Origin: a virus
IMG/VR virus record: IMGVR_UViG_3300022562_000747
Coordinates: 1 to 64,000 of that record
DNA length: 64,000 nt
Direction: 5' to 3' (one strand)
A model generated the notes under the pieces. It worked only from the letters and a program-made list of their open reading frames with translations, had not been told where the DNA came from and made no database searches. The position numbers and the translations under genes were made by a program. Positions 70 through 34,987 of the stretch are shown piece by piece; position 1 is the stretch's first letter, and each line of letters opens with the position of its first letter.

Positions 70-144
70 ACACGCATGGCTTGATGGGGAAGCAATGGAC
101 TCTTAATCCATGAAATGCGAGTTCGAATCTCGCTGCGTGTACCA
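70..144 (+). tRNA. tRNA-Lys(CTT)
   Basis: A seven-base acceptor stem (ACACGCA with TGCGTGT) closes the gene. The anticodon loop is CTCTTAA, giving CTT, on an ATGGA/TCCAT stem. The T-arm is canonical (GCGAG, TTCGAAT loop) and CCA is encoded. It is the first clear gene of the array. Confidence 0.9.
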
Positions 145-152
145 TTTCAAAG

Positions 153-236
153 TTTCGGTGCATTGATGTGCGTATCTTGCAAGATCACATTTGATGAAAT
201 CGTGTAAGGGTAGTCGCGTAACCTCACCGAAAGCCA
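153..236 (+). tRNA. Degenerate tRNA-like element, isotype unresolved
   Basis: An eight-base closing stem (TTTCGGTG with CACCGAAA) is followed by G and an encoded CCA, exactly like its tRNA neighbours. The inside does not fold as a normal cloverleaf: the T-arm would have a nine-base loop, and the best internal hairpins are ATCTTGCAAGAT and CACATTT/AAATCGTG. It may be a decayed class II tRNA or a tRNA mimic. No anticodon is assigned. Confidence 0.35.
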
Positions 237-241
237 TTTAT

Positions 242-313
242 AGGGGAGTAGCTTAAGATAAAAGCGGGACTTCATGAATCCAGTTGGTAGTTCATATCTA
301 TCCTCCCCTGCCA
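242..313 (+). tRNA. Degenerate tRNA with CAT anticodon (Met or Ile2)
   Basis: The acceptor stem AGGGGAG/CTCCCCT is perfect, CCA is encoded and the T-arm GGTAG/CTATC has a seven-base loop (TTCATAT). The D-stem is GCTT/AAGC. The anticodon loop TTCATGA would give CAT, but its stem has two mismatches and the variable region is short, so it may be decaying. Confidence 0.5.
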
Positions 314-320
314 ACATTAT

Positions 321-394
321 ATCAGCGAGCGCATGGGCGTGGTCCGAACTCCAAATCCGGAAACCCGCAGGTTCGACTCCTGCCGCTGGTGCCA
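321..394 (+). tRNA. tRNA-Trp(CCA)
   Basis: Acceptor ATCAGCG/CGCTGGT, anticodon loop CTCCAAA (CCA), canonical T-arm GCAGG/CCTGC with loop TTCGACT, encoded CCA. The anticodon stem has one A-C mismatch. Confidence 0.8.
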
Positions 395-400
395 TTTCAA

Positions 401-475
401 GGTGCTTTGGTGAATCAGCTATCATTTCTGTCTGTCGAACAGATGTAACGGGGGCAGCACCCGTAAGCACCGCCA
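401..475 (+). tRNA. tRNA-Asp(GTC), atypical T-loop
   Basis: Acceptor GGTGCTT/AAGCACC, D-stem GTGA/TCAT, anticodon arm TCTGT-CTGTCGA-ACAGA (GTC), encoded CCA. The T-stem ACGGG/CCCGT encloses GGCAGCA, which lacks the usual TTC start of a T-loop. Confidence 0.75.
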
Positions 476-487
476 ATTCAAATTCAA

Positions 488-562
488 GGCTCATGACGCT
501 GCTGGTGTGGCGATCCGGTTGTCAACCGGCTGAGAGGGGTTCGAATCCCCTATGAGTCGCCA
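488..562 (+). tRNA. tRNA-Asp(GTC), second copy
   Basis: Acceptor GGCTCAT/ATGAGTC, anticodon loop TTGTCAA (GTC), canonical T-arm AGGGG/CCCCT with loop TTCGAAT, encoded CCA. It is better conserved than the Asp gene just upstream, which suggests the first copy is diverging. Confidence 0.8.
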
Positions 563-566
563 ATAA

Positions 567-643
567 CAGGGTATGGGAAAGTCTAGTAATCCGCTACTTT
601 CGGAAAGTAGAGAGCGTTGGAGCGAAGCCAACTGCCCTGACCA
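567..643 (+). tRNA. tRNA-Pro(CGG), atypical T-loop
   Basis: Acceptor CAGGGTA/TGCCCTG, anticodon arm CTACT-TTCGGAA-AGTAG (CGG), encoded CCA. The T-stem GTTGG/CCAAC encloses AGCGAAG. Confidence 0.75.
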
Positions 644-647
644 ATAC

Positions 648-735
648 GCGCCATGGTGTAAGACACGGGAGAGACTTATAAACTCTTTAGCATCAGATGG
701 GTGTTCTTGACTTGGGGCAGTACCAAGATGGCGCA
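648..735 (+). tRNA. Class II tRNA, probable TAT loop, no encoded CCA
   Basis: Acceptor GCGCCAT/ATGGCGC is perfect, and the T-stem CTTGG/CCAAG encloses GGCAGTA. A long variable arm (CATC/GGTG) fits Leu, Ser or Tyr, but the anticodon loop in best register is CTTATAA (TAT, Ile), so the isotype is unclear. Unlike its neighbours the 3' end is followed by CAT rather than CCA. Confidence 0.5.
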
Positions 736-740
736 CATAG

Positions 741-790
741 ACTCCAAATTATGATAAATAGATGTAATAATCTGTCCTCTAACTTGGAGT
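741..790 (+). promoter_or_regulatory. RBS-sequestering long-range hairpin
   Basis: ACTCCAA (741-747) pairs perfectly with TTGGAGT (784-790), which contains the GGAG Shine-Dalgarno of the endonuclease starting at 798. Transcripts started at the motif at 753-760 would lack the 5' arm, leaving the site open. Confidence 0.55.
753..760 (+). promoter_or_regulatory. Late-type promoter motif GATAAATA
   Basis: Matches the T4 late -10 box (TATAAATA) at seven of eight positions. It lies inside the loop of the hairpin that covers the downstream endonuclease ribosome-binding site. Confidence 0.5.
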
Positions 791-797
791 ATAAATA

Positions 798-1388
798 ATG
801 TATTACACCATTTACAAAATAACCAATAAAACCAACAACAAATATTATATAGGCAAACATCAAACCAATAACATTGATGATGGTTATATGGGTTCCGGTA
901 AATTATTACGCCGCGCTATCAATAAACATGGAATAAACAATTTTGTTAAGGAAATTCTCCATATATTTGATAATGAACAGGATATGAATAATAAGGAAAA
1001 AGAACTTGTTGTTATTGGAGAACAATCATACAACTTATGTGATGGTGGTAAAGGTGGGTTTGGATATATAAACAAACTTCCAAATCAATCTTGGCGTATT
1101 AAAACTGGAAAAATTACTTCGCAAAAATTAAAAAATAAATCGGGGAATGATCATTGGAAAAATATATCCAGATTATCTCATGAAAAATATTCGAATTTAG
1201 GATTTCGTAGTTATTCAAAAAAACAACAAAATAAATGGAAATTATTAGGCAGTAAAAACGCACAAACACCAGAAGCTAAAGAAAAAAGAGCAAATACATG
1301 GAAAATAAAAATACAGAATGGTTGGAAACCCCACAATTGGAAGATGAAGAATGTGAAGTCTGTCGTTATACAGGTCAGAAACCCATAA
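798..1388 (+). CDS. GIY-YIG homing endonuclease
   Basis: The N-terminus holds the GIY-YIG signature: YTIYKITN (residues 3-10) then YYIGK (16-20), followed by the YMGSGK segment typical of phage freestanding intron-type endonucleases. The remaining C-terminus is Lys/Asn-rich, as in DNA-binding NUMOD regions (inferred). Such enzymes nick or cut DNA to spread their own gene. It sits directly after a tRNA and before a resolvase gene. The GGAG Shine-Dalgarno is eight bases before ATG and is covered by a hairpin. The reading frame overlaps a small cysteine-containing frame at 1298. Confidence 0.85.
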   Translation: MYYTIYKITNKTNNKYYIGKHQTNNIDDGYMGSGKLLRRAINKHGINNFVKEILHIFDNEQDMNNKEKELVVIGEQSYNLCDGGKGGFGYINKLPNQSWRIKTGKITSQKLKNKSGNDHWKNISRLSHEKYSNLGFRSYSKKQQNKWKLLGSKNAQTPEAKEKRANTWKIKIQNGWKPHNWKMKNVKSVVIQVRNP

Positions 1389-1480
1389 AACTGAAAAGAC
1401 AATGGGTCCATTACTTTCCCTTAAAGGGAAGGATTGTGGTATGTAGATCAAAAAGGTATAATCATGAAAGCAATCTTTAG
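1298..1480 (+). CDS. Small cysteine-containing protein (uncertain)
   Basis: A 60-residue frame overlaps the end of the endonuclease and reaches the start of the resolvase gene. It contains a CEVC pair and one further cysteine near its end, so it could be a small metal-binding protein left in place when the endonuclease gene inserted upstream. It lacks a second complete CxxC pair and a strong ribosome-binding site, so it may also be fortuitous. Confidence 0.3.
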   Translation: MENKNTEWLETPQLEDEECEVCRYTGQKPIKLKRQWVHYFPLKGRIVVCRSKRYNHESNL

Positions 1481-1829
1481 GTATGATGAATTTTCACACC
1501 CACCGCGAATGATGATCAACATTCATGGTGCGCCTCATGAAAGGCAGCATCGTGAAGTTCTTCAAAAGTATCGCGATGATTTGACTGATGCTTTCAAAAG
1601 ACAGTTGCCGAATGTTACAATTCCTATTGACCATCCGGTTGACTTGGAAGTGTTTTTCACTAATCCGGCAAGTCCTGATTTGAACCATGTATTGACGGCA
1701 TTGTTCGCCGCAATGGATGCAAAGTCATTGAAGGGTCCGTCTATTTTGACTGATGATCGCCATATTCAAAAGGTGGTTATGTCGAAATATTATATCGGTA
1801 AGCCAACAAAAAGGGATAGTGTCCGATGA
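1464..1829 (+). CDS. RusA-like Holliday junction resolvase
   Basis: The middle of the protein reads PDLNHVLTALFAAMDA, then about ten residues later TDDRHIQ followed by KYYIGK. This matches the RusA family layout, where acidic residues in DxDN and DDR motifs bind magnesium at four-way junctions. Length (about 121 residues) also fits. RusA proteins resolve branched replication and recombination intermediates, useful before packaging. I chose the ATG at 1464, preceded by AAAAGG, over an upstream ATG at 1434. The stop overlaps the next start. Confidence 0.65.
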   Translation: MKAIFRYDEFSHPPRMMINIHGAPHERQHREVLQKYRDDLTDAFKRQLPNVTIPIDHPVDLEVFFTNPASPDLNHVLTALFAAMDAKSLKGPSILTDDRHIQKVVMSKYYIGKPTKRDSVR

Positions 1830-2092
1830 CGATTTGCCGAGTATGTACGGGTAGCGGTTCATTTTTTGCCGTTCAACCTCATAATATGACGAAGAAAAAG
1901 GTTTACAAGTGGTTTCCCTGTCCGTCCTGTAATGGACTTGGAACCATTGATGTGGATAGTCCTGCCAAGATTGTAATGCATCCTTTTCCCAAGGGCATTT
2001 CTAATAGGCTAAAAAGAAATCTACAAAAATTAAGGGAAGGTAGCGGGGAAGGTCCCCAAGCGGTCTTGAAAACCGCGCCACCGCAAGGTTGA
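1826..2092 (+). CDS. DnaJ-type zinc-finger small protein
   Basis: Two CxxCxGxG motifs (CRVCTGSG and CPSCNGLG, near residues 4-11 and 32-39) resemble one zinc-binding module of the DnaJ cysteine-rich domain. No J domain is present. Role unknown; such modules in phages usually bind zinc and partner proteins. Its start overlaps the resolvase stop. Its last 58 bases lie inside the tRNA-Ser gene at 2035, an unusual protein/tRNA overlap on the same strand. Confidence 0.6.
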   Translation: MTICRVCTGSGSFFAVQPHNMTKKKVYKWFPCPSCNGLGTIDVDSPAKIVMHPFPKGISNRLKRNLQKLREGSGEGPQAVLKTAPPQG

Positions 2093-2118
2093 TAGTTCAA
2101 TTCTATTGCCTTCCGCCA
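2035..2118 (+). tRNA. tRNA-Ser(TGA)
   Basis: Acceptor GGAAGGT/GCCTTCC, class II length, anticodon arm GCGGT-CTTGAAA-ACCGC (TGA), T-arm GATAG/CTATT with loop TTCAATT, encoded CCA. A second GGAAGGT at 2047 gives a false start without a D-arm; the upstream copy restores normal geometry. Confidence 0.85.
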
Positions 2119-2122
2119 ATAT

Positions 2123-2209
2123 GGAAAATTAAATAGCCGGGGAGCTATCCACGCTTGGAAAGCGTGAGGCACTTAAATGTGTGTGGATCAAGACCACAGT
2201 TTTCCGCCA
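2123..2209 (+). tRNA. tRNA-Ser(GGA), T-loop ATCAAGA
   Basis: Acceptor GGAAAAT/GTTTTCC, anticodon arm CACGC-TTGGAAA-GCGTG (GGA), long variable arm, T-stem TGTGG/CCACA, encoded CCA. The T-loop starts with A instead of T. Confidence 0.85.
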
Positions 2210-2211
2210 AT

Positions 2212-2285
2212 AACATATCACGCATACCCCAGTCGGGTCGTGTCCGTCAAGGTATTCGCTCACAACGTCAAGGCGGTGATATGTT
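2212..2285 (+). ncRNA. Folded non-tRNA element in tRNA array
   Basis: A perfect ten-base closing stem (AACATATCAC with GTGATATGTT) surrounds an ACCC/GGGT hairpin and further GC-rich sequence. There is no CCA, anticodon arm or T-arm. It occupies the slot between two tRNA-Ser genes, so it is probably co-transcribed and released as a separate small RNA. Function unknown. Confidence 0.4.
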
Positions 2286-2293
2286 TCATTTAT

Positions 2294-2381
2294 GGAAAGA
2301 TAACCCATAAGGATATGGGGTGCGCCTCGAAAGCGTAACGATGATTCAGTCATTGGGGATCAAGACCTCATCTTTCCGCCA
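2294..2381 (+). tRNA. tRNA-Ser(CGA), T-loop ATCAAGA
   Basis: Acceptor GGAAAGA/TCTTTCC, anticodon loop CTCGAAA (CGA), class II variable arm, T-stem TGGGG/CCTCA around ATCAAGA, encoded CCA. Confidence 0.85.
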
Positions 2382-2386
2382 TTAGT

Positions 2387-2474
2387 CTATTGGGATTTCG
2401 CGCAAAAAAACCTGATAGGTGCGACACCTGCCTTGCGAGTGGTGTGACTTTGGGGAGAGTCCTGAGCCAATAGG
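2387..2474 (+). tRNA. tRNA-like element, possible TGC anticodon
   Basis: Closing stem CTATTGG/CCAATAG is perfect. A CTTGCGA loop on a short stem could be an Ala(TGC) anticodon, and TTTGG/CCTGA around GGAGAGT resembles the odd T-arms of this array. The total length and the following GTCCA do not fit a functional tRNA well; possibly a decayed copy. Confidence 0.25.
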
Positions 2475-2487
2475 TCCAGTTCGATAT

Positions 2488-2522
2488 AGAACATACACAA
2501 TATGTTTCTAATTCTATGTTCT
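2488..2522 (+). ncRNA. Small hairpin element between tRNAs
   Basis: AGAACATA (2488-2495) pairs perfectly with TATGTTCT (2515-2522) around an AT-rich loop. The surrounding 2480-2618 has no gene I can support; it also holds a TGTTT/AAACA hairpin (2530-2542). Confidence 0.3.
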
Positions 2523-2618
2523 GGCGAAAGTGTTTTGCAAACAGCCTAAATAAAATATCAGCACAAACACGGATGTAATGGAGTGCTAGTCGAGAGTTAG
2601 TAGCTTGACAAAGTTTAT

Positions 2619-2695
2619 AGCAGGTAGGACAAGGTAGATAAGTCGCCACTCTCATAAAGTGGAGAAAGTCGGGGCAGAGCCGACACCTGCAACCA
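2619..2695 (+). tRNA. tRNA-Met(CAT) with mismatched first pair
   Basis: Anticodon arm CCACT-CTCATAA-AGTGG gives CAT, T-stem GTCGG/CCGAC encloses GGCAGAG, encoded CCA. The acceptor is AGCAGGT/ACCTGCA, so position 1-72 is an A-A mismatch. An unpaired 1-72 is the hallmark of bacterial initiator tRNA, but the three G-C pairs of the initiator anticodon stem are missing, so elongator Met or Ile2 remains possible. Confidence 0.75.
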
Positions 2696-2782
2696 ATAAT
2701 CTGGTACTGATCATACGTCACCTAAAGACATAGGACCGATCAGCTAAGAGAAAGTATGCGATACTGCCGGATTTTTAATAAT

Positions 2783-2871
2783 GAGTAGGTATCAAGCTCG
2801 ACGGCAAGGAGCAAGCGGTCTGTAAAACCGATCCCATATGGGCGGGGGTTCGACTCCTCACCTACTCACCA
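2783..2871 (+). tRNA. tRNA-Tyr(GTA)
   Basis: Acceptor GAGTAGG/CCTACTC, anticodon loop CTGTAAA (GTA), long variable arm as expected for bacterial Tyr, canonical T-loop, encoded CCA. Confidence 0.9.
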
Positions 2872-2875
2872 TTAC

Positions 2876-2949
2876 GCGGGCGAAGGATTACGGCAGTCTT
2901 AGGCGTTGCCAACGCTTCGGCGTGGGTTCGACTCCCACCGTCCGCACCA
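2876..2949 (+). tRNA. tRNA-Gly(GCC)
   Basis: Acceptor GCGGGCG/CGTCCGC, anticodon loop TTGCCAA (GCC), canonical T-arm, encoded CCA. Confidence 0.9.
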
Positions 2950-2954
2950 ATAAA

Positions 2955-3030
2955 GCCTTTTGAGCAAGTATGGTTATTGCACCTGTCTGAAGAACAGTGG
3001 AACTCCGTTCGATTCGGGGAAAAGGCACCA
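2955..3030 (+). tRNA. tRNA-Phe(GAA)
   Basis: Acceptor GCCTTTT/AAAAGGC, anticodon loop CTGAAGA (GAA), encoded CCA. The following 3031-3105 has a perfect 16-base palindrome (3035-3050) and small hairpins but no tRNA that I can fold. Confidence 0.85.
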
Positions 3031-3105
3031 TTAGATAGGATACCGGTATCCTCCATGTAGATATGGTGGCAGTTAAGGCTGTCGAGTAAAGCCGGGGCTA
3101 TAATT

Positions 3106-3183
3106 GGGGTGCGGGATTGCATAGGGTGATCGCCTGCCTTGCAAGCAGGAATCAGCGGGGGGCAGTACCCCGGCACTCCACCA
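3106..3183 (+). tRNA. tRNA-Ala(TGC), T-loop GGCAGTA
   Basis: Acceptor GGGGTGC/GCACTCC, anticodon arm CCTGC-CTTGCAA-GCAGG (TGC), T-stem CGGGG/CCCCG around GGCAGTA, encoded CCA. Confidence 0.85.
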
Positions 3184-3190
3184 ATTTTAT

Positions 3191-3265
3191 TCTATCGTAC
3201 TCAACTGGTAAGAGAAGTGGCTGTTAACCACCGATATGTAGGTTCGAATCCTACCGATAGAGCCA
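3191..3265 (+). tRNA. tRNA-Asn(GTT)
   Basis: Acceptor TCTATCG/CGATAGA, anticodon loop CTGTTAA (GTT), canonical T-arm, encoded CCA. Confidence 0.9.
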
Positions 3266-3269
3266 ATAT

Positions 3270-3344
3270 GCTGCTTTCGTCTAACGATCAGGACACCGCC
3301 CTCTCAAGGCGGAAACGTGGGGTGAGTACCCGCAAGCAGCGCCA
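3270..3344 (+). tRNA. tRNA-Glu(CTC), T-loop GTGAGTA
   Basis: Acceptor GCTGCTT/AAGCAGC, anticodon arm CCGCC-CTCTCAA-GGCGG (CTC), T-stem GTGGG/CCCGC around GTGAGTA, encoded CCA. Confidence 0.85.
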
Positions 3345-3347
3345 ATT

Positions 3348-3675
3348 TCGGAAGCGTAGATGATCGCGCTACGGTGAGGAAAGTCGGGTCTGCTAATACA
3401 ACCGTAATGGGTAACGCCCATCCACAGTAATGTGAGGATTAGAGCTACAGGGACGATCCTATTAAGTTAGGGATGAAACGAGCAATCTCTACGGGCAGCA
3501 ATCTCAAGTTCTCCGAAGGGTATGTATTCCCATCACTTAAATGTGTGTTAGGTAATGGTAGAGAGCAAAGACCTAAATGGAAACGTTTGGGCAAGTCAAA
3601 TGATCGTCATATATTGATTATAATACGACCATTTCTATAATCAATATGAACAGAAACCCGCTTATTCGCTTCCGA
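3348..3675 (+). ncRNA. rnpB: RNase P RNA (bacterial type A-like)
   Basis: RNase P RNA is the catalytic RNA that trims 5' leaders from tRNA precursors. The conserved landmarks appear in the right order: helix P1 ends TCGGAAGCG (3348-3356) and CGCTTCCGA (3667-3675) are perfect complements; GAGGAAAGTC (3376-3385, the P4 5' strand region); GGGTAACGCCC (about 3410-3420); GGATGAAACGAG (about 3471-3482); GAGCAAAGACCTAAATGG (about 3563-3580); and ACAGAAACCCGCTTAT (about 3650-3665), the P4 3' strand region. A 12-base hairpin near 3612-3648 is an AT-rich peripheral helix. Length about 328 bases is close to host RNAs. It lies inside the tRNA array, four bases after tRNA-Glu, and probably processes that array with a host protein subunit. 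Confidence 0.93.
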
Positions 3676-3685
3676 GAAATACTTA

Positions 3686-3735
3686 CCGGGATAAATACCA
3701 TGTATATCCCGGCATGGCTCGTCCGGGATTTTTTA
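3686..3735 (+). terminator. Terminator with competing upstream hairpin
   Basis: ATCCCGG (3706-3712) pairs with CCGGGAT (3723-3729), followed by a T-rich run: an intrinsic terminator for RNase P RNA. The same ATCCCGG can instead pair with CCGGGATA at 3686-3693, giving two mutually exclusive hairpins. An ATAAATA late-type motif (3691-3697) lies in the first one. Confidence 0.7.
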
Positions 3736-3768
3736 TTTTAGAGCCATAATAATAAAGAGGTAAAATAC

Positions 3769-4071
3769 ATGGTTCTTCCTATTGTAGTAGCTGCTGTTGT
3801 TGCTGGTTCGCTAGTAACAAGTGGAATTGTTGTTCATGAAAGGAATCCTGTTGTTGGAAATGTTCTAATTGGAGCCGGGGTTGGAACTATTATCGGCGGT
3901 GGTCTTGGAACTGCTGCTGGTGCTGGTTTCAGTGTCGCTACTGGAGCAACAACCGGAGGAGTTATTGGAGGTATTGGCGGCGTTGTCGTTGGTCCTCATG
4001 TTTCTTATGCAAAGACAAGATATGTGGTATCACATTATCCTGATCCGGCGAAAAATATAAGTGGTTACTAA
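3769..4071 (+). CDS. Glycine-zipper membrane protein
   Basis: A 100-residue protein with a hydrophobic start (MVLPIVVAAVVAGSLV) and a long Gly/Ala-rich segment with repeated GxxxG spacing (about residues 33-75), as in glycine-zipper proteins that pack in membranes. The C-terminus is polar. An AAAGAGG Shine-Dalgarno precedes the ATG. Function unknown; in phages such proteins are found in virions or in the host envelope. It is a lone gene between RNase P RNA and tRNA-Arg. Confidence 0.7.
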   Translation: MVLPIVVAAVVAGSLVTSGIVVHERNPVVGNVLIGAGVGTIIGGGLGTAAGAGFSVATGATTGGVIGGIGGVVVGPHVSYAKTRYVVSHYPDPAKNISGY

Positions 4072-4101
4072 TTTTATCACGTAAAAATTTACTAATACCG
4101 G

Positions 4102-4125
4102 TTGGGGGGACCACAATCCCCCCAA
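4102..4125 (+). terminator. Strong hairpin after glycine-zipper gene
   Basis: TTGGGGGG (4102-4109) pairs with CCCCCCAA (4118-4125). There is no T-run, so it may be a processing signal rather than a true terminator. Confidence 0.5.
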
Positions 4126-4131
4126 TCATTT

Positions 4132-4207
4132 GGTTCCATAGTTTAACTGGATAAATCACAACCCTGCGAAGGTTGAGTTCCGTGTTCGAGTCACGGTGGA
4201 ACCTCCA
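4132..4207 (+). tRNA. tRNA-Arg(GCG)
   Basis: Acceptor GGTTCCA/TGGAACC, normal D-arm with AACTGGATAA loop, anticodon arm CAACC-CTGCGAA-GGTTG (GCG), canonical T-arm, encoded CCA. Confidence 0.9.
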
Positions 4208-4211
4208 TTTC

Positions 4212-4293
4212 GCGCATATATCCCCTCACGCTTCGAACGTGAACAAAGGTAACTGGAAGGAAGATACGGGTTCGAATCCTGTTATGCGCTCCA
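4212..4293 (+). tRNA. tRNA-Arg(TCG) lacking a normal D-arm
   Basis: Acceptor GCGCATA/TATGCGC, T-arm ACGGG/CCTGT with TTCGAAT, and encoded CCA are normal. The anticodon arm TCACG-CTTCGAA-CGTGA starts only seven bases after the acceptor, leaving no room for a D-arm. The 23-base region after it contains AACTGGAAGG, like the D-loop of the neighbouring Arg(GCG) gene. TATC (4219-4222) could pair with GATA (4263-4266). Its last bases overlap the 3' end of the opposite-strand HNH gene. Confidence 0.65.
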
Positions 4294-4626
4294 TTTAAAT
4301 CTGCCAGCATGGAATTTGCGATGGCAATTTGCACAAAAAACAATACACTTAGAAACTTCGTCTAATATACGTTCTTTAGTGCTACCATTAGCTAATAATC
4401 TTGATATGGTATTATCTTTTATTTTTGGGTTCATATGATGAAAATCTAAACAAGAAAAATCATCTTCACCACAACGAACACAATTATATTGAGGCATAAT
4501 TTCTTCTCGAAACCATTTCTTTTTAGCTTGTTTGTTTGTGAAGGAACGTTTATAAACTTTTTTTTTATTTCGTATGTAAGATTCATGAGCAGCTTGTTTC
4601 TGTTTTATAGGGTCTTTATAAGGCAT
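4282..4626 (-). CDS. HNH homing endonuclease
   Basis: CVRCG, then LDFHHMNPK, then CANCHRKFH form a compact zinc-bound HNH nuclease with the H-N-H residues and two CxxC knuckles. The N-terminus is Lys-rich, as in DNA-binding extensions. Freestanding HNH enzymes in T4-type phages cut DNA to promote their own inheritance. The ATG at 4626 (MPYKD) has an AGGAG site; an upstream ATG at 4641 is less likely. The start region lies in an eight-base-pair hairpin, and a CTAAATAG motif is just upstream. It is inserted against the orientation of the tRNA array. Confidence 0.85.
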   Translation of the reverse strand: MPYKDPIKQKQAAHESYIRNKKKVYKRSFTNKQAKKKWFREEIMPQYNCVRCGEDDFSCLDFHHMNPKIKDNTISRLLANGSTKERILDEVSKCIVFCANCHRKFHAGRFKWSA

Positions 4627-4651
4627 AGTATCTCCTATCAAATGATACTAT
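4625..4651 (-). promoter_or_regulatory. Start-codon-sequestering hairpin of HNH gene
   Basis: ATAGTATC and GATACTAT are perfect complements flanking an 11-base loop. On the coding strand the loop holds the AGGAG site and the 3' arm covers the first bases of the ATG. Confidence 0.6.
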
Positions 4652-4659
4652 CTATTTAG
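4652..4659 (-). promoter_or_regulatory. Late-type motif CTAAATAG
   Basis: TAAATA-core motif just upstream of the HNH gene hairpin, oriented toward the gene. Transcription from it would begin within or next to the 5' arm. Confidence 0.45.
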
Positions 4660-4697
4660 GGTTCAAATTTTCAAAATTTTTTGAACCATCAATTCAA

Positions 4698-4773
4698 CTG
4701 GGTGAATATCGTGCTAGAAGATTACTTGCCTTGGAAGCAAGTGGACGAGGGGCAGAGCCTCGCACCCAGACCA
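4698..4773 (+). tRNA. tRNA-Pro(TGG), T-loop GGCAGAG
   Basis: Acceptor CTGGGTG/CACCCAG, anticodon arm CTTGC-CTTGGAA-GCAAG (TGG), T-stem CGAGG/CCTCG around GGCAGAG, encoded CCA. Confidence 0.85.
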
Positions 4774-4860
4774 ATTCGTGTTATTAAATATGCCCGCTAG
4801 TTAGCGGCTCGTATCAGTCCATGGCTCTGATCGAAACGAGAAAACAACAATAACACGAAT
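4774..4860 (+). ncRNA. Three-stem structured RNA of unknown family
   Basis: ATTCGTGTTATT (4774-4785) and AATAACACGAAT (4849-4860) form a perfect 12-base-pair closing stem. Inside are a CCGCTA/TAGCGG hairpin and a long hairpin made of CTCGT/ACGAG and ATCAG/CTGAT separated by an unpaired CGAA. It begins immediately after the CCA of tRNA-Pro and ends seven bases before tRNA-Gln. No protein frame, anticodon or T-arm is present. It is likely released from the tRNA precursor as an 87-base RNA. Confidence 0.6.
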
Positions 4861-4867
4861 GCTATAA

Positions 4868-4942
4868 TGCCGTTTAGTTCAATGATAGAACGTCACGCTC
4901 TGAACGTGAATGTCGGTGGTTTGATTCCATCAACGGCAGCCA
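4868..4942 (+). tRNA. tRNA-Gln(CTG)
   Basis: Acceptor TGCCGTT/AACGGCA, anticodon arm TCACG-CTCTGAA-CGTGA (CTG), T-arm GGTGG/CCATC with TTTGATT, encoded CCA. Confidence 0.88.
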
Positions 4943-4943
4943 A

Positions 4944-5078
4944 TTAGGCGTTGAGAATAGCTTTTCCGCCTAGATATGCCAATGCTCCAATACCAACAAT
5001 CGGCAATGTAGCAATATATACTAAGCCGATGAATGGAGCCGCAAAGAATAAAGCAATATTTTTAATTTTGGTACGCAT
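4944..5078 (-). CDS. Small two-segment membrane protein
   Basis: About 44 residues from the ATG at 5078: a basic start (MRTKIK) then an almost continuous hydrophobic stretch containing FFAAPFIGLVYIATLPIVGI and a Gly/Ala-rich end. An AGGAAG site is well placed for this start; a longer frame from 5168 lacks one. Probably an inner-membrane protein; function unknown. It lies opposite to the tRNA array, ending two bases after tRNA-Gln. Confidence 0.55.
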   Translation of the reverse strand: MRTKIKNIALFFAAPFIGLVYIATLPIVGIGALAYLGGKAILNA

Positions 5079-5149
5079 AATTTTCTTCCTTTCTACTGGA
5101 CTCGTTGCATAATTTGTGCCAACGAATGTCCTCCAAAATATAGAAGGAA

Positions 5150-5178
5150 TTGACTTACCAAACAACATATGGTATAAT
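5150..5178 (+). promoter_or_regulatory. Sigma70-type promoter for tRNA block
   Basis: TTGACT, 17-base spacer, perfect TATAAT. It points toward the tRNA-Cys to Arg block starting at 5219 and overlaps the upstream part of the opposite-strand small gene. Confidence 0.8.
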
Positions 5179-5218
5179 AGCGTATAACAAAATTATTCGA
5201 AGTATGAAAAAGATATAT

Positions 5219-5293
5219 GAACTAGTGCCGGAATTGGCTACGGGGCGGTCTGCAAAATCGTTTATAGGGGTTCGAACCCCCTCTAGTTCTCCA
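5219..5293 (+). tRNA. tRNA-Cys(GCA)
   Basis: Acceptor GAACTAG/CTAGTTC, anticodon loop CTGCAAA (GCA), T-arm AGGGG/CCCCT with TTCGAAC, encoded CCA. Confidence 0.88.
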
Positions 5294-5298
5294 ATAGT

Positions 5299-5380
5299 AC
5301 CCATGTAACCGAGTCTGCCTTCTAAGCAGTTAATCGTAGTGGAGTTGAAAACGGGGGTTCAAATCCCTCCATGGGTTCCA
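5299..5380 (+). tRNA. tRNA-Arg(TCT) lacking a normal D-arm
   Basis: Acceptor ACCCATG/CATGGGT, T-arm GGGGG/CCCTC and CCA are normal. The anticodon arm (TCTGC-CTTCTAA-GCAGT, TCT) begins eight bases after the acceptor. A 22-base region follows it and includes GTAGTGGAG, similar to this phage's D-loops. Confidence 0.65.
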
Positions 5381-5452
5381 GTTAGAGGTTTTTTATGTAT
5401 CAAAATATCAATGAATATATGCAATATGGTTTTTATTCTGGAAGAACTATTT

Positions 5453-5528
5453 ACTCGCGTAGTTCAGTGGAAAGAACGACAATTTCCTAAATTGTTGGTC
5501 CCCGGTTCGATCCCGGGCGCGAGTTCCA
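5453..5528 (+). tRNA. tRNA-Arg(CCT)
   Basis: Acceptor ACTCGCG/CGCGAGT, normal D-arm, anticodon arm ACAAT-TTCCTAA-ATTGT (CCT), canonical T-arm, encoded CCA. Confidence 0.9.
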
Positions 5529-5532
5529 ATTC

Positions 5533-5617
5533 GCCTTAGTATCGGACCTGTTGTTCTAAACAGGCAAATAATAAACCGTAATGGACTATAGGGGTTCGAT
5601 TCCCCTCTAAGGCTCCA
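5533..5617 (+). tRNA. Arg-like tRNA (TCT) with eight-base anticodon loop, no normal D-arm
   Basis: Acceptor GCCTTAG/CTAAGGC, T-arm AGGGG/CCCCT with TTCGATT, and CCA are normal. The anticodon stem CCTGT/ACAGG encloses TGTTCTAA, eight bases instead of seven (or a six-pair stem with a six-base loop). Only seven bases separate acceptor and anticodon stem; a 25-base region with GTAATGGAC follows. Confidence 0.6.
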
Positions 5618-5632
5618 TTAGAAAGGTAAATC

Positions 5633-6247
5633 ATGGTTACGCTAATTGGTGACGTTCACGGCAAATATGGTGAATATAAACAAATTATAAAAAGGCATAA
5701 AAATTCTATTGCCTTGGGAGATATGGGACTTGGATTTTTCCGTTTTGATCATCATGAAGGGAAAATTCCAATGGCTAATCCTCCGTATGATTACATGGTG
5801 AAATATAATGCTCGATTTATTCGAGGCAACCATGATAATCCGGAAGTTTGTAAAAAACATACCCAATGGATACCGGATGGAACTATCGAAGGTGATATGT
5901 TCTTTCTTGGCGGGGCATTTTCAATAGATCATATGTATCGTCTTGAAGGGTATAGCTGGTGGAAAGATGAAGAATTGTCACATGAAGAATTTGACAAGAT
6001 CATCGATCCCTACCGGAAAGCTAAACCAAGAATTGTGATAACTCATGATTGTCCTTTGCGGATGGTTCCTTATGTTGGTTCACACCATATTAGGGACAAT
6101 TCGAGAACTCAACAATTCCTGCAATCATTGTTCGAGTTTCATCAACCCGAATATTGGTATTTTGGTCATCACCATAAGTCATGGAAGATGATTTCAGATA
6201 AAACAACATTCCGATGTTTAGCTGAACTTGAGACATTGGAAATCTAA
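5633..6247 (+). CDS. Calcineurin-like metallophosphoesterase
   Basis: All motifs of the family are visible in order: GDVHG (residues 6-10), GDMG (about 29-32), RGNHDN (about 64-69), THDCP (about 142) and GHHH (about 178). These bind two metal ions and hydrolyse phosphoester bonds. The substrate is unknown: phage members act on DNA ends, cyclic nucleotides or RNA. Length 204 residues is typical. It follows tRNA-Arg by 15 bases with a GAAAGG site, so it is part of the tRNA operon; a role in RNA end processing is possible but not shown. Confidence 0.85.
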   Translation: MVTLIGDVHGKYGEYKQIIKRHKNSIALGDMGLGFFRFDHHEGKIPMANPPYDYMVKYNARFIRGNHDNPEVCKKHTQWIPDGTIEGDMFFLGGAFSIDHMYRLEGYSWWKDEELSHEEFDKIIDPYRKAKPRIVITHDCPLRMVPYVGSHHIRDNSRTQQFLQSLFEFHQPEYWYFGHHHKSWKMISDKTTFRCLAELETLEI

Positions 6248-6393
6248 CCGTTGTCGGGGCAACGTAAATAATCCCCCCTCAATTGAGGTTCTACCCGAAT
6301 ACGAAGTGCATAGCCACCGTCGCACCAACCAAGGATATCGGGAGACATTCGGTTCAAAGGCGTGAGAACCAGCAATTAGAAATAGAGATAAAA
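6248..6393 (+). other. Gene-free segment with hairpins
   Basis: No tRNA or protein gene can be supported. Small hairpins are visible: CGTTG/CAACG, CCTC/GAGG and GGTTC/GAACC (about 6350-6370). It may hold another structured element of the array. Confidence 0.3.
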
Positions 6394-6480
6394 GGAATGA
6401 ACAAGCCGAGAGGATCGGCAACTGTTTGCTAAACAGATTGTTCCGAGAGGAATACGGTTCGAATCCGTGTCATTCCGCCA
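6394..6480 (+). tRNA. tRNA-Ser(GCT)
   Basis: Acceptor GGAATGA/TCATTCC, anticodon loop TTGCTAA (GCT), class II variable arm, canonical T-arm, encoded CCA. Confidence 0.88.
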
Positions 6481-6485
6481 ATAAT

Positions 6486-6560
6486 GCGCGCGTGGGTCAT
6501 TGGTTGATCGTCAGCCTTCCAAGCTGTTCCAAGCGGGTTCGATTCCCGCCGCCCGCTCCA
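6486..6560 (+). tRNA. tRNA-Gly(TCC)
   Basis: Acceptor GCGCGCG/CGCCCGC with one C-C mismatch, anticodon arm with loop CTTCCAA (TCC), canonical T-arm, encoded CCA. Confidence 0.85.
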
Positions 6561-6581
6561 ATTCAGATAATGGGGATAACA

Positions 6582-6794
6582 ATGTTCAAATGGATAAAGT
6601 CGTTCTTTGAACCAAAGAAAAAGGTGCCACATAATGGCATGAGAGCCTATGATAAAGGATTTGATATAAATGATAATCCTTTCTGGAAAAACACGGTTCA
6701 ATATGTAATTTGGCGCAAGGATTACATTTTTGCGTCACAATATCCAAAGGTGAAGAAAGATGTTAACATACAGTCAACTAAACCAAGAGTGTGA
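6582..6794 (+). CDS. Hypothetical 70-residue basic protein
   Basis: The frame continues upstream into tRNA-Gly, so I placed the start at the ATG at 6582 (MFKWIKSFF), which has GGGGATAAC in front. The start is amphipathic and Trp/Phe-rich, the rest is Lys-rich and polar. No family recognised. It overlaps the next gene by 35 bases. Confidence 0.55.
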   Translation: MFKWIKSFFEPKKKVPHNGMRAYDKGFDINDNPFWKNTVQYVIWRKDYIFASQYPKVKKDVNIQSTKPRV

Positions 6795-6954
6795 ACGATG
6801 GCGAAATCGCTATCTATCATCCGATGCTGGTAGTATAGTTGAAGTAAGCAAGGAACAAATTCGATTGATCTATCTTTCGCTTGCTGCTGCTAAGGCGCGG
6901 CATTACAATGATAAGGTTGATCCGGAATTTGTAGAGTTAGATAAGAGTTTATAG
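6760..6954 (+). CDS. Hypothetical 64-residue helical protein
   Basis: Mostly alpha-helical by composition (QLNQECERWRNRYLS, then IRLIYLSLAAAKARHY). A GAAGAAAG site precedes the ATG. The stop codon overlaps the first bases of tRNA-Gln at 6953. No family recognised. Confidence 0.5.
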   Translation: MLTYSQLNQECERWRNRYLSSDAGSIVEVSKEQIRLIYLSLAAAKARHYNDKVDPEFVELDKSL

Positions 6955-7026
6955 GGGATTCGTTCAATGGTAGGACGGCAGACTTTGAATCTGCCTACGT
7001 GGGTTCGATTCCTACATCCCCTTCCA
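6953..7026 (+). tRNA. tRNA-Gln(TTG)
   Basis: Acceptor AGGGGAT/ATCCCCT, D-loop with CAATGGTAGG, anticodon arm GCAGA-CTTTGAA-TCTGC (TTG), canonical T-arm, encoded CCA. Confidence 0.9.
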
Positions 7027-7030
7027 ATAT

Positions 7031-7104
7031 GGCGGTAGTTCGCTGGCGAACGGGCATTGCTCATAACGATGCACAGGTGGGATCGTCACCCACAACCGCT
7101 ACCA
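7031..7104 (+). tRNA. tRNA-Met(CAT) or Ile2
   Basis: Anticodon arm CATTG-CTCATAA-CGATG (CAT), T-stem GTGGG/CCCAC around ATCGTCA, encoded CCA. The acceptor GGCGGTA/AACCGCT has one mismatch. CAT could also be a lysidine-modified Ile2 anticodon. Confidence 0.78.
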
Positions 7105-7108
7105 ATAA

Positions 7109-7185
7109 GCTGGCTATGCTCGATGGCAATGAGCGGCGTGTCTGTGAAACACGAATATTCGGTTCGAATCCGATAGCCAGTACCA
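7109..7185 (+). tRNA. tRNA-His(GTG)
   Basis: Acceptor GCTGGCT/AGCCAGT, anticodon arm CGTGT-CTGTGAA-ACACG (GTG), canonical T-arm, encoded CCA. The next base pair inward also matches, giving eight pairs as is usual for His tRNA. Confidence 0.88.
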
Positions 7186-7896: not shown

Positions 7897-8661
7897 ATGA
7901 AAAATGATGACTATAATGAAAAATTTATAAAGATGCGGGCAATTGGGCTTCATGCCGCCCAATGTTTGGATGTAATTGAAGGTGAGATAGTCCCCGGAAT
8001 GTCCACTCAAGATATTGATGATATAGTTGTAAAGTATGCTAAAGAAAATAATTTGATATGTGCGCCTTTAAATTATAAAGGATTTCCAAAAAGTTGTTGT
8101 ACGAGTGTAAATCACACGATATGCCATGGCATTCCCAAATCCAATAAAATTCTAAAAGAGGGGGATATTGTAAAGGTCGATATTACCTTCAAGGATAAAG
8201 AGGGATGGCATGGTGATACCTGTAAGACATTTGCAATTGGGAACGTTTCGGTCAAGGCAAACAAGTTAATCAAGATAACTGAACATGCCTTGACCTTGGG
8301 TATCAAAGAGTCCCGCGCCGGGAACAGGATCGGAGATATTGGGCGAGTTATTCAGGATTATGTCGAAGGTGAAGGATTTTCGGTAGTCAAGGAATATGTC
8401 GGGCATGGTATCGGGCAGGGTTTCCATATGCTTCCCCATATCTATCATTACGCTCGCCCATGGAAAAATGATATGGATACGAAACTGGAACCCGGAATGA
8501 TCTTTACAATTGAGCCAATGGTTAATATCGGAACCGCTAAAACAAAGGTTTTAAGAGACAAATGGTCCGTTGTGACCCGGGATCGATTATATTCAGCCCA
8601 ATTCGAACATACTATTGGGATAACCGAAGGTGATCCTATTATATTTACGGAAAAAGCATGA
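7897..8661 (+). CDS. map: Methionine aminopeptidase, type I
   Basis: Removes the initiator methionine from new proteins. All five metal ligands of the pita-bread fold are present: D95 (KVDITF), D107 (GDTCKTF), H170 (GHGIG), E206 (FTIEPM) and E237 (QFEHT), plus the substrate-binding H77 (CHGIP). Length 254 matches bacterial MetAP-I without an extension. The mRNA appears leaderless. The stop overlaps the next ATG. A phage copy would keep N-terminal processing of abundant phage proteins going during host takeover (inference). Confidence 0.95.
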   Translation: MKNDDYNEKFIKMRAIGLHAAQCLDVIEGEIVPGMSTQDIDDIVVKYAKENNLICAPLNYKGFPKSCCTSVNHTICHGIPKSNKILKEGDIVKVDITFKDKEGWHGDTCKTFAIGNVSVKANKLIKITEHALTLGIKESRAGNRIGDIGRVIQDYVEGEGFSVVKEYVGHGIGQGFHMLPHIYHYARPWKNDMDTKLEPGMIFTIEPMVNIGTAKTKVLRDKWSVVTRDRLYSAQFEHTIGITEGDPIIFTEKA

Positions 8662-34096: not shown

Positions 34097-34626
34097 GAAA
34101 TTTTAATCTGATTTATAAGTTCTATTAATTCTTCATCTGAATGATTATTTTTAGCAAGATTAACACCATAGGCAACAAATTGGACATTTCCTTTTACATA
34201 ACCAATTTTAGAATTTTTTCGATCTAATGAAGCTGATAATAATGTAGAATGTTGATAGGTCTTTCGTAAATTAATTGGAATATTAGAAAGCGCACATAAA
34301 CCATTTTGTTTGTTCCATAAGGATTTTAAATATGCTTCATCAATGTTTGAGGTTCCATACTGTCTTTCTCTATCTCTGATTTTTTTAATATAATAATAAA
34401 AATTTACATCAAATTGGCGATTAGCCTTTCCATATGTATTTCCTTTAGATCGTTCACGTAACTTATTTCTTTGATCTTGAGACATATTTTTATTTTTATA
34501 TGTAGCGGTGCAAGATAATGAACAGAAAAAATAATTTCTACCATTTTTTATTTGACGATTATATTCATTGAATGGTTTATAAAAATCTTTTTTACATTCA
34601 GTACAATTTAGCTTGACTTCGGACAT
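34093..34626 (-). CDS. HNH homing endonuclease
   Basis: 177 residues. An N-terminal zinc module (LNCTECKKDF...FFCSLSC) precedes the HNH region NGLCALSNIPINL, SASLDRKNSKIGYVKGNVQF and VNLAKNNH, matching the SLDR..S..GY..GNVQ type of HNH homing enzymes. AGGAG site upstream. It sits between the hydrolase operon and the tmRNA gene, on the opposite strand. Confidence 0.85.
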   Translation of the reverse strand: MSEVKLNCTECKKDFYKPFNEYNRQIKNGRNYFFCSLSCTATYKNKNMSQDQRNKLRERSKGNTYGKANRQFDVNFYYYIKKIRDRERQYGTSNIDEAYLKSLWNKQNGLCALSNIPINLRKTYQHSTLLSASLDRKNSKIGYVKGNVQFVAYGVNLAKNNHSDEELIELINQIKIS

Positions 34627-34639
34627 AATATCTCCTATA

Positions 34640-34647
34640 CTAAATAG
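34640..34647 (+). promoter_or_regulatory. Late-type motif CTAAATAG before tmRNA
   Basis: TAAATA-core motif immediately upstream of the tmRNA acceptor piece. Confidence 0.4.
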
Positions 34648-34649
34648 AG

Positions 34650-34970
34650 TTGCAGATGATGACTTCTGGATGAAATACTTGCGGAACAGGGGGTGCGACT
34701 CCCCCTCACCTCCACCATAAATCCATTAGCTCCATATTTATATATTTTGTGGATTTATGAAGGGGGTGCGTAGGATCGCCCGGGGTAAAGTAAAAAGGAA
34801 CGAGTTTGTCGGTAAGGTCTAAGCCGTAATAGAGACACAAAGTAAAGGACAACGATTATGTTGCTCCATTGTGGGATTTTGCATCCCTTCGTGAACCGGC
34901 GCTTGTCGCCTAATTAGCGGGGATAAATCCTACGGGGTTAGGGGGGAACCTGTCACAAAAATCCCCCCAT
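34650..34970 (+). ncRNA. ssrA: Circularly permuted tmRNA
   Basis: tmRNA rescues stalled ribosomes by acting as tRNA and mRNA. The acceptor piece comes first: T-arm GGGGG-TGCGACT-CCCCC (34689-34705), acceptor strand CACCTCC (34707-34713), A, CCA (34715-34717). A linker with a TAAATCCA/TGGATTTA hairpin follows. The coding piece then starts GGGGGTGCGTAGGATCG; GGGGGTG (34762-34768) pairs with CACCTCC, restoring the acceptor stem. The tag frame (34842-34913) reads KDNDYVAPLWDFASLREPAL then VA and stop; ALVA endings are recognised by ClpXP-type proteases. This order (CCA end before the coding part) is the two-piece type known from alphaproteobacteria. No SmpB gene is seen here. Confidence 0.88.
34941..34970 (+). 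terminator. Terminator of tmRNA gene
   Basis: GGGGGG (34941-34946) pairs with CCCCCC (34963-34968) and is followed by ATTTATTATT. Confidence 0.65.
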
Positions 34971-34987
34971 TTATTATTGAGGAAATA

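Follow-up and report, generated by a model that had tools for sequence, protein, structure and literature searches.

A class A RNase P RNA gene within the tRNA array of a large phage

RNase P RNA is the RNA enzyme by which cells trim tRNAs, and belongs to the very small set of trans-acting ribozymes that have been retained across life. Why would a virus carry its own? The question is raised by IMG/VR virus record IMGVR_UViG_3300022562_000747, of 181,157 bases, the first 64,000 nucleotides of which form the whole stretch of DNA analysed here (the window; coordinates refer to it unless another record is named). An earlier note, made from the letters alone, had read an RNase P RNA inside a phage tRNA array at this locus, and had proposed that the phage supplies its own ribozyme for use with a host protein. 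To our knowledge no virus has been reported with its own RNase P RNA.

The gene is genuine: it belongs to a phage and encodes a class A RNase P RNA. Checking with Infernal (cmscan) bore out the identification, giving a match to RF00010, the bacterial class A RNase P RNA, at 3348–3679 on the plus strand (139.1 bits, E 1.2e-42, against a gathering score of 100), with an alignment that covers the full model, positions 1–367. As had been claimed, the ends are joined by a perfect P1 helix, all nine of its pairs forming between the 5′ strand UCGGAAGCG (3348–3356, +) and the 3′ strand CGCUUCCGA (3667–3675, +), so that 3348 and 3675 are exact for the P1 ends. Standard pairs occupy 67 of the 72 Rfam consensus base pairs that this RNA has (93%), a count taken from an alignment fitted to the Rfam model; when the partners were slid by 1–3 positions as a control, only 37–44% were standard.

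The universal landmark segments are all present and in order. Conserved region I, GAGGAAAGUCGGG (3376–3388, +), comprises J3/4 and the start of the P4 5′ strand, with the bulged U at 3384. Conserved region V, AACAGAAACCCGCUUAU (3649–3665, +), was placed by the RF00010 alignment and the P4 check, and holds the P4 3′ strand ACCCGCUU (3656–3663, +). Checked by hand, apart from the Rfam model, P4 has eight of eight pairs and retains its bulged U. Defining conserved columns as those with at least 95% conservation in 34 other RNase P RNAs, we find 49 of 51 columns of the near-universal core retained; the two altered are A to G at 3451 and A to U at 3596, the latter in J18/2. Further changes are AUGAAA in place of GUGAAA in J11/12 and an altered 5′ side of L15 (AAAUAGG). 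The P4 bulge and the J-region bases had been singled out beforehand as the places where a false RNase P RNA would betray itself: the bulge stands, while the J regions carry the changes in J18/2 and J11/12.

The P6 pseudoknot, with P16–P17, is a hallmark of class A. It is absent from the Rfam model and was examined separately: AAUACA in J5/7 (3395–3400, +) forms six pairs with UGUAUU in the P17 loop (3523–3528, +), a pairing found at a frequency of 0.007 in shuffles. The GGU motif of L15, which reads the 3′ CCA of precursor tRNA, lies at 3557–3559 (+) within the sequence UAAUGGUAGAGAGC, aligned to the CGGGU segment of the Rfam model. P13 and P14, helices that are common in class A RNase P RNA but do not define it, are absent, with 43 model positions deleted in the alignment; they are also missing from the bacterial RNase P RNA of Polaromonas, so their absence does not exclude class A membership. 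Folded on its own, the stretch has a minimum free energy that beats shuffles by only a moderate margin (z −2.06), and we therefore place the weight on the covariance score and on covariation, treating plain MAFFT alignment and folding of the RNA alone as weak evidence.

The first 144 bases of the record equal its last 144, so the genome closes into a circle and the record is probably complete. From its genes for terminase, tail sheath, baseplate and a major head protein of the gp23 type, the phage is a T4-like myophage. Among isolates, the best matches to its terminase, about 51–52% identical, are those of Sinorhizobium phages phiN3/phiM12, Rhizobium phage RHph_I1_18 and Methylophilales phage Melnitz. 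The RNase P RNA does lie inside the phage tRNA array, which spans the circular junction and holds at least 24 tRNA genes. Its right part (70–7185, +) has 16 ARAGORN tRNAs; the remainder, across the junction at record positions 178188–181013, has eight more at record 178371–180758 (a ninth there is the end repeat), and additional array tRNAs were detected by Rfam. Directly upstream of the RNase P RNA is a tRNA gene at 3270–3344 (+; RF00005, 45.3 bits at 3270–3341), whose encoded CCA is separated from P1 by a spacer of 3 nt (GCGCCA-AUU-UCGG), from which we infer that the RNase P RNA is probably part of a tRNA transcript. CCA is encoded at the end of 24 of the 25 ARAGORN tRNAs.

The array has other residents. 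A protein with a GIY-YIG endonuclease domain (798–1388, +; Pfam, 25 bits) is a possible means of spreading the tRNA cluster, and a calcineurin-like phosphoesterase (5633–6247, +; Pfam, 37.9 bits) also lies among the tRNA genes. A GOLLD RNA (RF02032, 180 bits, threshold 150) was found at record 179787–180277 (L042:15787–16277), with a tRNA within it (L042:15857–15929). Shortly after the array is an M24 metallopeptidase gene (7897–8661, +), methionine aminopeptidase-like and possibly translation-related. Outside the array, at 34609–34971 (+), is a permuted two-piece tmRNA (RF01849, alpha_tmRNA, 70 bits; RF04321, tmRNA_permuted, 69 bits), another likely RNase P substrate.

Whether the RNA is maintained can be judged from relatives. 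G001, a record of 113 kb whose major capsid protein is the nearest to ours (79% identity), has an orthologous RNase P RNA (167.8 bits) in a similar place and a similar tRNA gene order; the tRNAs that follow it and resemble ours are Arg-gcg, Gln-ctg, Cys-gca, Arg-cct and Gly-tcc. A phosphatase-like ORF, read from the sequence, lies just 5′ of that gene (L081, about 640–1333). A record from another metagenome, G042, has a copy that looks identical to the one in G001. Comparing our RNA with that of G001, 31 pairs are unchanged, four have changed on one side, 27 have changed on both sides and seven have a non-standard member; seven of the P1 pairs are altered on both sides. P6 in G001 is CACGAA/UUCGUG, again six pairs, in a sequence unrelated to ours; cross-pairing the P6 strands of the two RNAs gives only two or three pairs, against six within each RNA. 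In a third record, G052 (109 kb), P6 is GAGCA/UGCUC, with five pairs. The 27 compensated pairs, together with a P6 re-formed with new sequence, are strong evidence that the RNA has been under selection for its folded structure. RF00010 had no match in five isolated T4-like relatives (phiN3, phiM12, RHph_I1_18, Melnitz and S-CREM1).

The origin of the gene looks Burkholderiales-like. A search with the core UGAAACGNGCAAUCUCUACGNGNAGCAAU against one genome per GTDB species returned, among the matches listed, almost all Burkholderiales, mostly Comamonadaceae, and nucleotides 29–162 of the RNA are 77–80% identical to Comamonadaceae, again among the matches listed. RNase P RNAs of 90 evenly drawn Pseudomonadota nearly all score 248–356 bits, with Polaromonas and two others at 163–209. 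A tree places the RNAs of our record, G001 and G052 with those of Burkholderiales (support 0.73). An alphaproteobacterial source, to which the earlier note had pointed, finds no support in the core search, the identities, the scores or the tree, all of which give the Burkholderiales/Comamonadaceae type. The tmRNA of the same phage, by contrast, scores best with the alphaproteobacterial model. The other phage RNAs are scattered over several parts of the tree, with modest supports, and phages have likely acquired RNase P RNA several times independently.

The protein subunit of RNase P, RnpA (PF00825), was found in none of the 33 virus records with RNase P RNA (ours and 32 others), while the same search found it in ten control bacteria; use of the host protein subunit, as the earlier note proposed, is the natural inference for a phage genome in which no RnpA gene was found. 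We regard it as probable that this is a working phage RNase P RNA, of Burkholderiales-type rnpB origin and kept by selection, which cuts phage pre-tRNAs with host RnpA. An rnpB gene would have been captured from a Burkholderiales-type bacterium and then retained by selection. Its RNA would be transcribed together with the phage tRNA array, fold as a class A ribozyme lacking P13/P14, and bind the RnpA of the host; the hybrid would cut the 5′ leaders of phage pre-tRNAs, and probably the two-piece tmRNA precursor too. Maturation of at least 24 phage tRNAs would thereby be made independent of the host supply of RNase P RNA. The idea that the ribozyme is tuned to odd tRNA precursors gains nothing from the present data: an encoded CCA in nearly all the tRNAs, together with a retained GGU loop that reads CCA, suggests ordinary substrate recognition.

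The benefit to the phage is not obvious, since the nearest isolated T4-like phages do without the gene and host rnpB stays abundant in two published infections by other phages. It remains stable in T4 infection, where the authors suggest possible processing of phage tRNAs (PMC9697503), and it is conspicuous among host RNAs in phiKZ infection (PMC8545117). One might suppose that the phage RNA acts on the host, binding host RnpA or host pre-tRNAs and so lowering or redirecting host tRNA processing, a role for which it need not be a ribozyme. An RNA without a protein of its own would indeed compete for host RnpA, and a few catalytic-domain positions deviate. But a sponge would not need the catalytic core, the bulged U of P4, the GGU of L15 and P6, all of which are retained, and the position within the tRNA array points to tRNA processing; we consider this explanation unlikely.

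The RNA might be an active RNase P whose main substrate is something other than tRNAs, such as the two-piece tmRNA precursor, the GOLLD RNA or phage mRNAs. The same phage does encode a permuted tmRNA, as well as a GOLLD RNA into which a tRNA-like element is inserted. Any active RNase P would, however, have the surrounding tRNA genes, at least 24, as substrates, and tRNA arrays are found in most of the virus records that bear RNase P RNA, so that we hold a different main substrate to be quite improbable.

We give slightly less credence to the idea that the gene is a passenger, an rnpB copy that a mobile tRNA cluster picked up and that serves no use. The endonuclease gene and the other structured RNAs in the array would suit such a history, tRNA clusters are exchanged among phages, and RNase P RNA is missing from some relatives. 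Yet 27 pairs compensated on both sides and a re-formed P6 are not expected without selection on structure, and the gene has likely been acquired repeatedly across many phages; the passenger is strongly disfavoured. That the locus is an artefact of assembly, or that contaminating host DNA was joined to a phage sequence, is exceedingly improbable: although some 'phage' records with rnpB in IMG/VR and GenBank are host flanks of prophages or look contaminated, our record is circular, the gene sits between tRNA genes, among the matches listed no bacterial rnpB is close to it over its full length (the best is about 80% over 134 nt), and synteny refutes the artefact, with the orthologue beside similar tRNA genes in G001 and G042, from two other metagenomes.

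A phage-encoded ribozyme working with host RnpA remains our reading, and it may extend well beyond this phage. Records were found in IMG/VR with two DNA patterns that describe the RNase P core, and were then scored whole with Infernal; RF00010 was above threshold in 25 records of 75–463 kb, some of them near-copies of each other. The large ones include G035 (463 kb), G049 (369 kb), G050 (363 kb), G021 (317 kb), G046 (279 kb), G044 (268 kb), G048 (252 kb) and G011 (202 kb). Most RNase P RNAs in large records lie within or beside tRNA arrays, and several of the records also have tmRNA. Loci in large IMG/VR records include L090, L092, L098, L105, L107, L110, L111, L113, L116, L118 and L119, and at most of the loci the RNA lies within an array, of up to 36 tRNAs. 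Phage hallmarks were found as a major capsid protein and DNA polymerase in G001, terminase in G022, G036, G044 and G049, tail sheath in G035 and G036, portal in G046 and a tail protein in G011; for the remaining records viral status is that of the IMG/VR classification. Only some records were positive for PF03237, PF04984 and phrog_2 because the proteins of jumbo phages diverge.

Some of these RNAs are shortened. Those of G011 (L080), G012 (L082) and G036 (L145) are 236–298 nt long and appear to have no P15–P17 or GGU loop. Across phages, presence of the L15 GGU loop showed no association with a CCA encoded in the tRNAs: those of G012 and G036 encode it where the loop is apparently missing. 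About 3 kb from the G011 gene is a group I intron (RF00028, 68 bits; L013:3325–3528, −). We think it somewhat better than an even bet that large phages rich in tRNAs, in several lineages, have captured RNase P RNA repeatedly and independently, and that it forms a hybrid enzyme of virus RNA and host protein, with some copies reduced by dropping P15–P17.

No isolated phage with RNase P RNA was found, either among the five T4-like relatives by RF00010 or among 50,697 phage records by blastn, where our RNA had no match in a search that would miss divergent RNAs. Six more RNase P RNAs, taken from other virus records and used as blastn queries, hit host DNA flanking prophages, faecal contigs without annotation, one Salmonella contig and Microcystis phage MaAM05 (MW495066.1, L043), and nothing else. 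The last was rejected: its RNase P-like match is flanked by fliM, fabI, mtgA, glyS and gatD, and the record looks bacterial or contaminated.

The RNA itself is of a known kind; what is new is its presence in a virus, and its recurrence among large phages. Phage RNase P RNA had been called very rarely reported, a description that we could not confirm: searches of open-access PMC full texts turned up no paper in which a phage or other virus encodes this RNA, while the sequences occur commonly among large phages in IMG/VR. As that search covered open-access texts, novelty is not proven. A survey of huge phages does not mention RNase P (PMC7162821), and a study of megaphages reports tRNAs and tmRNA in them, not RNase P RNA, which it uses as a completeness check for cellular genomes (PMC8172020). 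Annotators who use rnpB as such a marker should be warned that large phages can carry it. If active, the phage RNAs would form ribonucleoproteins that are part virus and part host, would offer structure–function work a set of RNase P RNAs reduced by nature, and would mean a phage tRNA supply that depends on a deletable phage gene, which would allow a direct test of why large phages take over parts of translation.

Among the closest known systems is the class A RNase P RNA of Comamonadaceae/Burkholderiales, which shares with ours the full model match, the absence of P13/P14 and the core. Ours differs in being virus-borne, inside a tRNA array and in a genome without RnpA; it scores 139 bits against about 207 for Polaromonas, and has its own P1, P6 and P16–P17 sequences and some J-region changes. 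For phages T4 and phiKZ, unlike this one, no RNase P RNA gene has been reported (PMC9697503, PMC8545117). One parallel is phage tmRNA, a known phage gene, counted in 402 phages in the study that describes the ssrA of Melnitz, which is likewise a host-type translation RNA in a T4-like phage, presumably working with host proteins (PMC9004378). Our phage has a tmRNA as well; its RNase P RNA differs as a ribozyme that acts in trans to process tRNAs. A second parallel is offered by theta (HDV-like) ribozymes, which phages encode beside their tRNAs and which have been proposed to mature those tRNAs (PMC10879173). These are small and self-cleaving and act in cis on the 3′ side of the tRNA, and the same paper leaves the 5′ side, on which RNase P RNA acts in trans, to the usual cellular enzyme.
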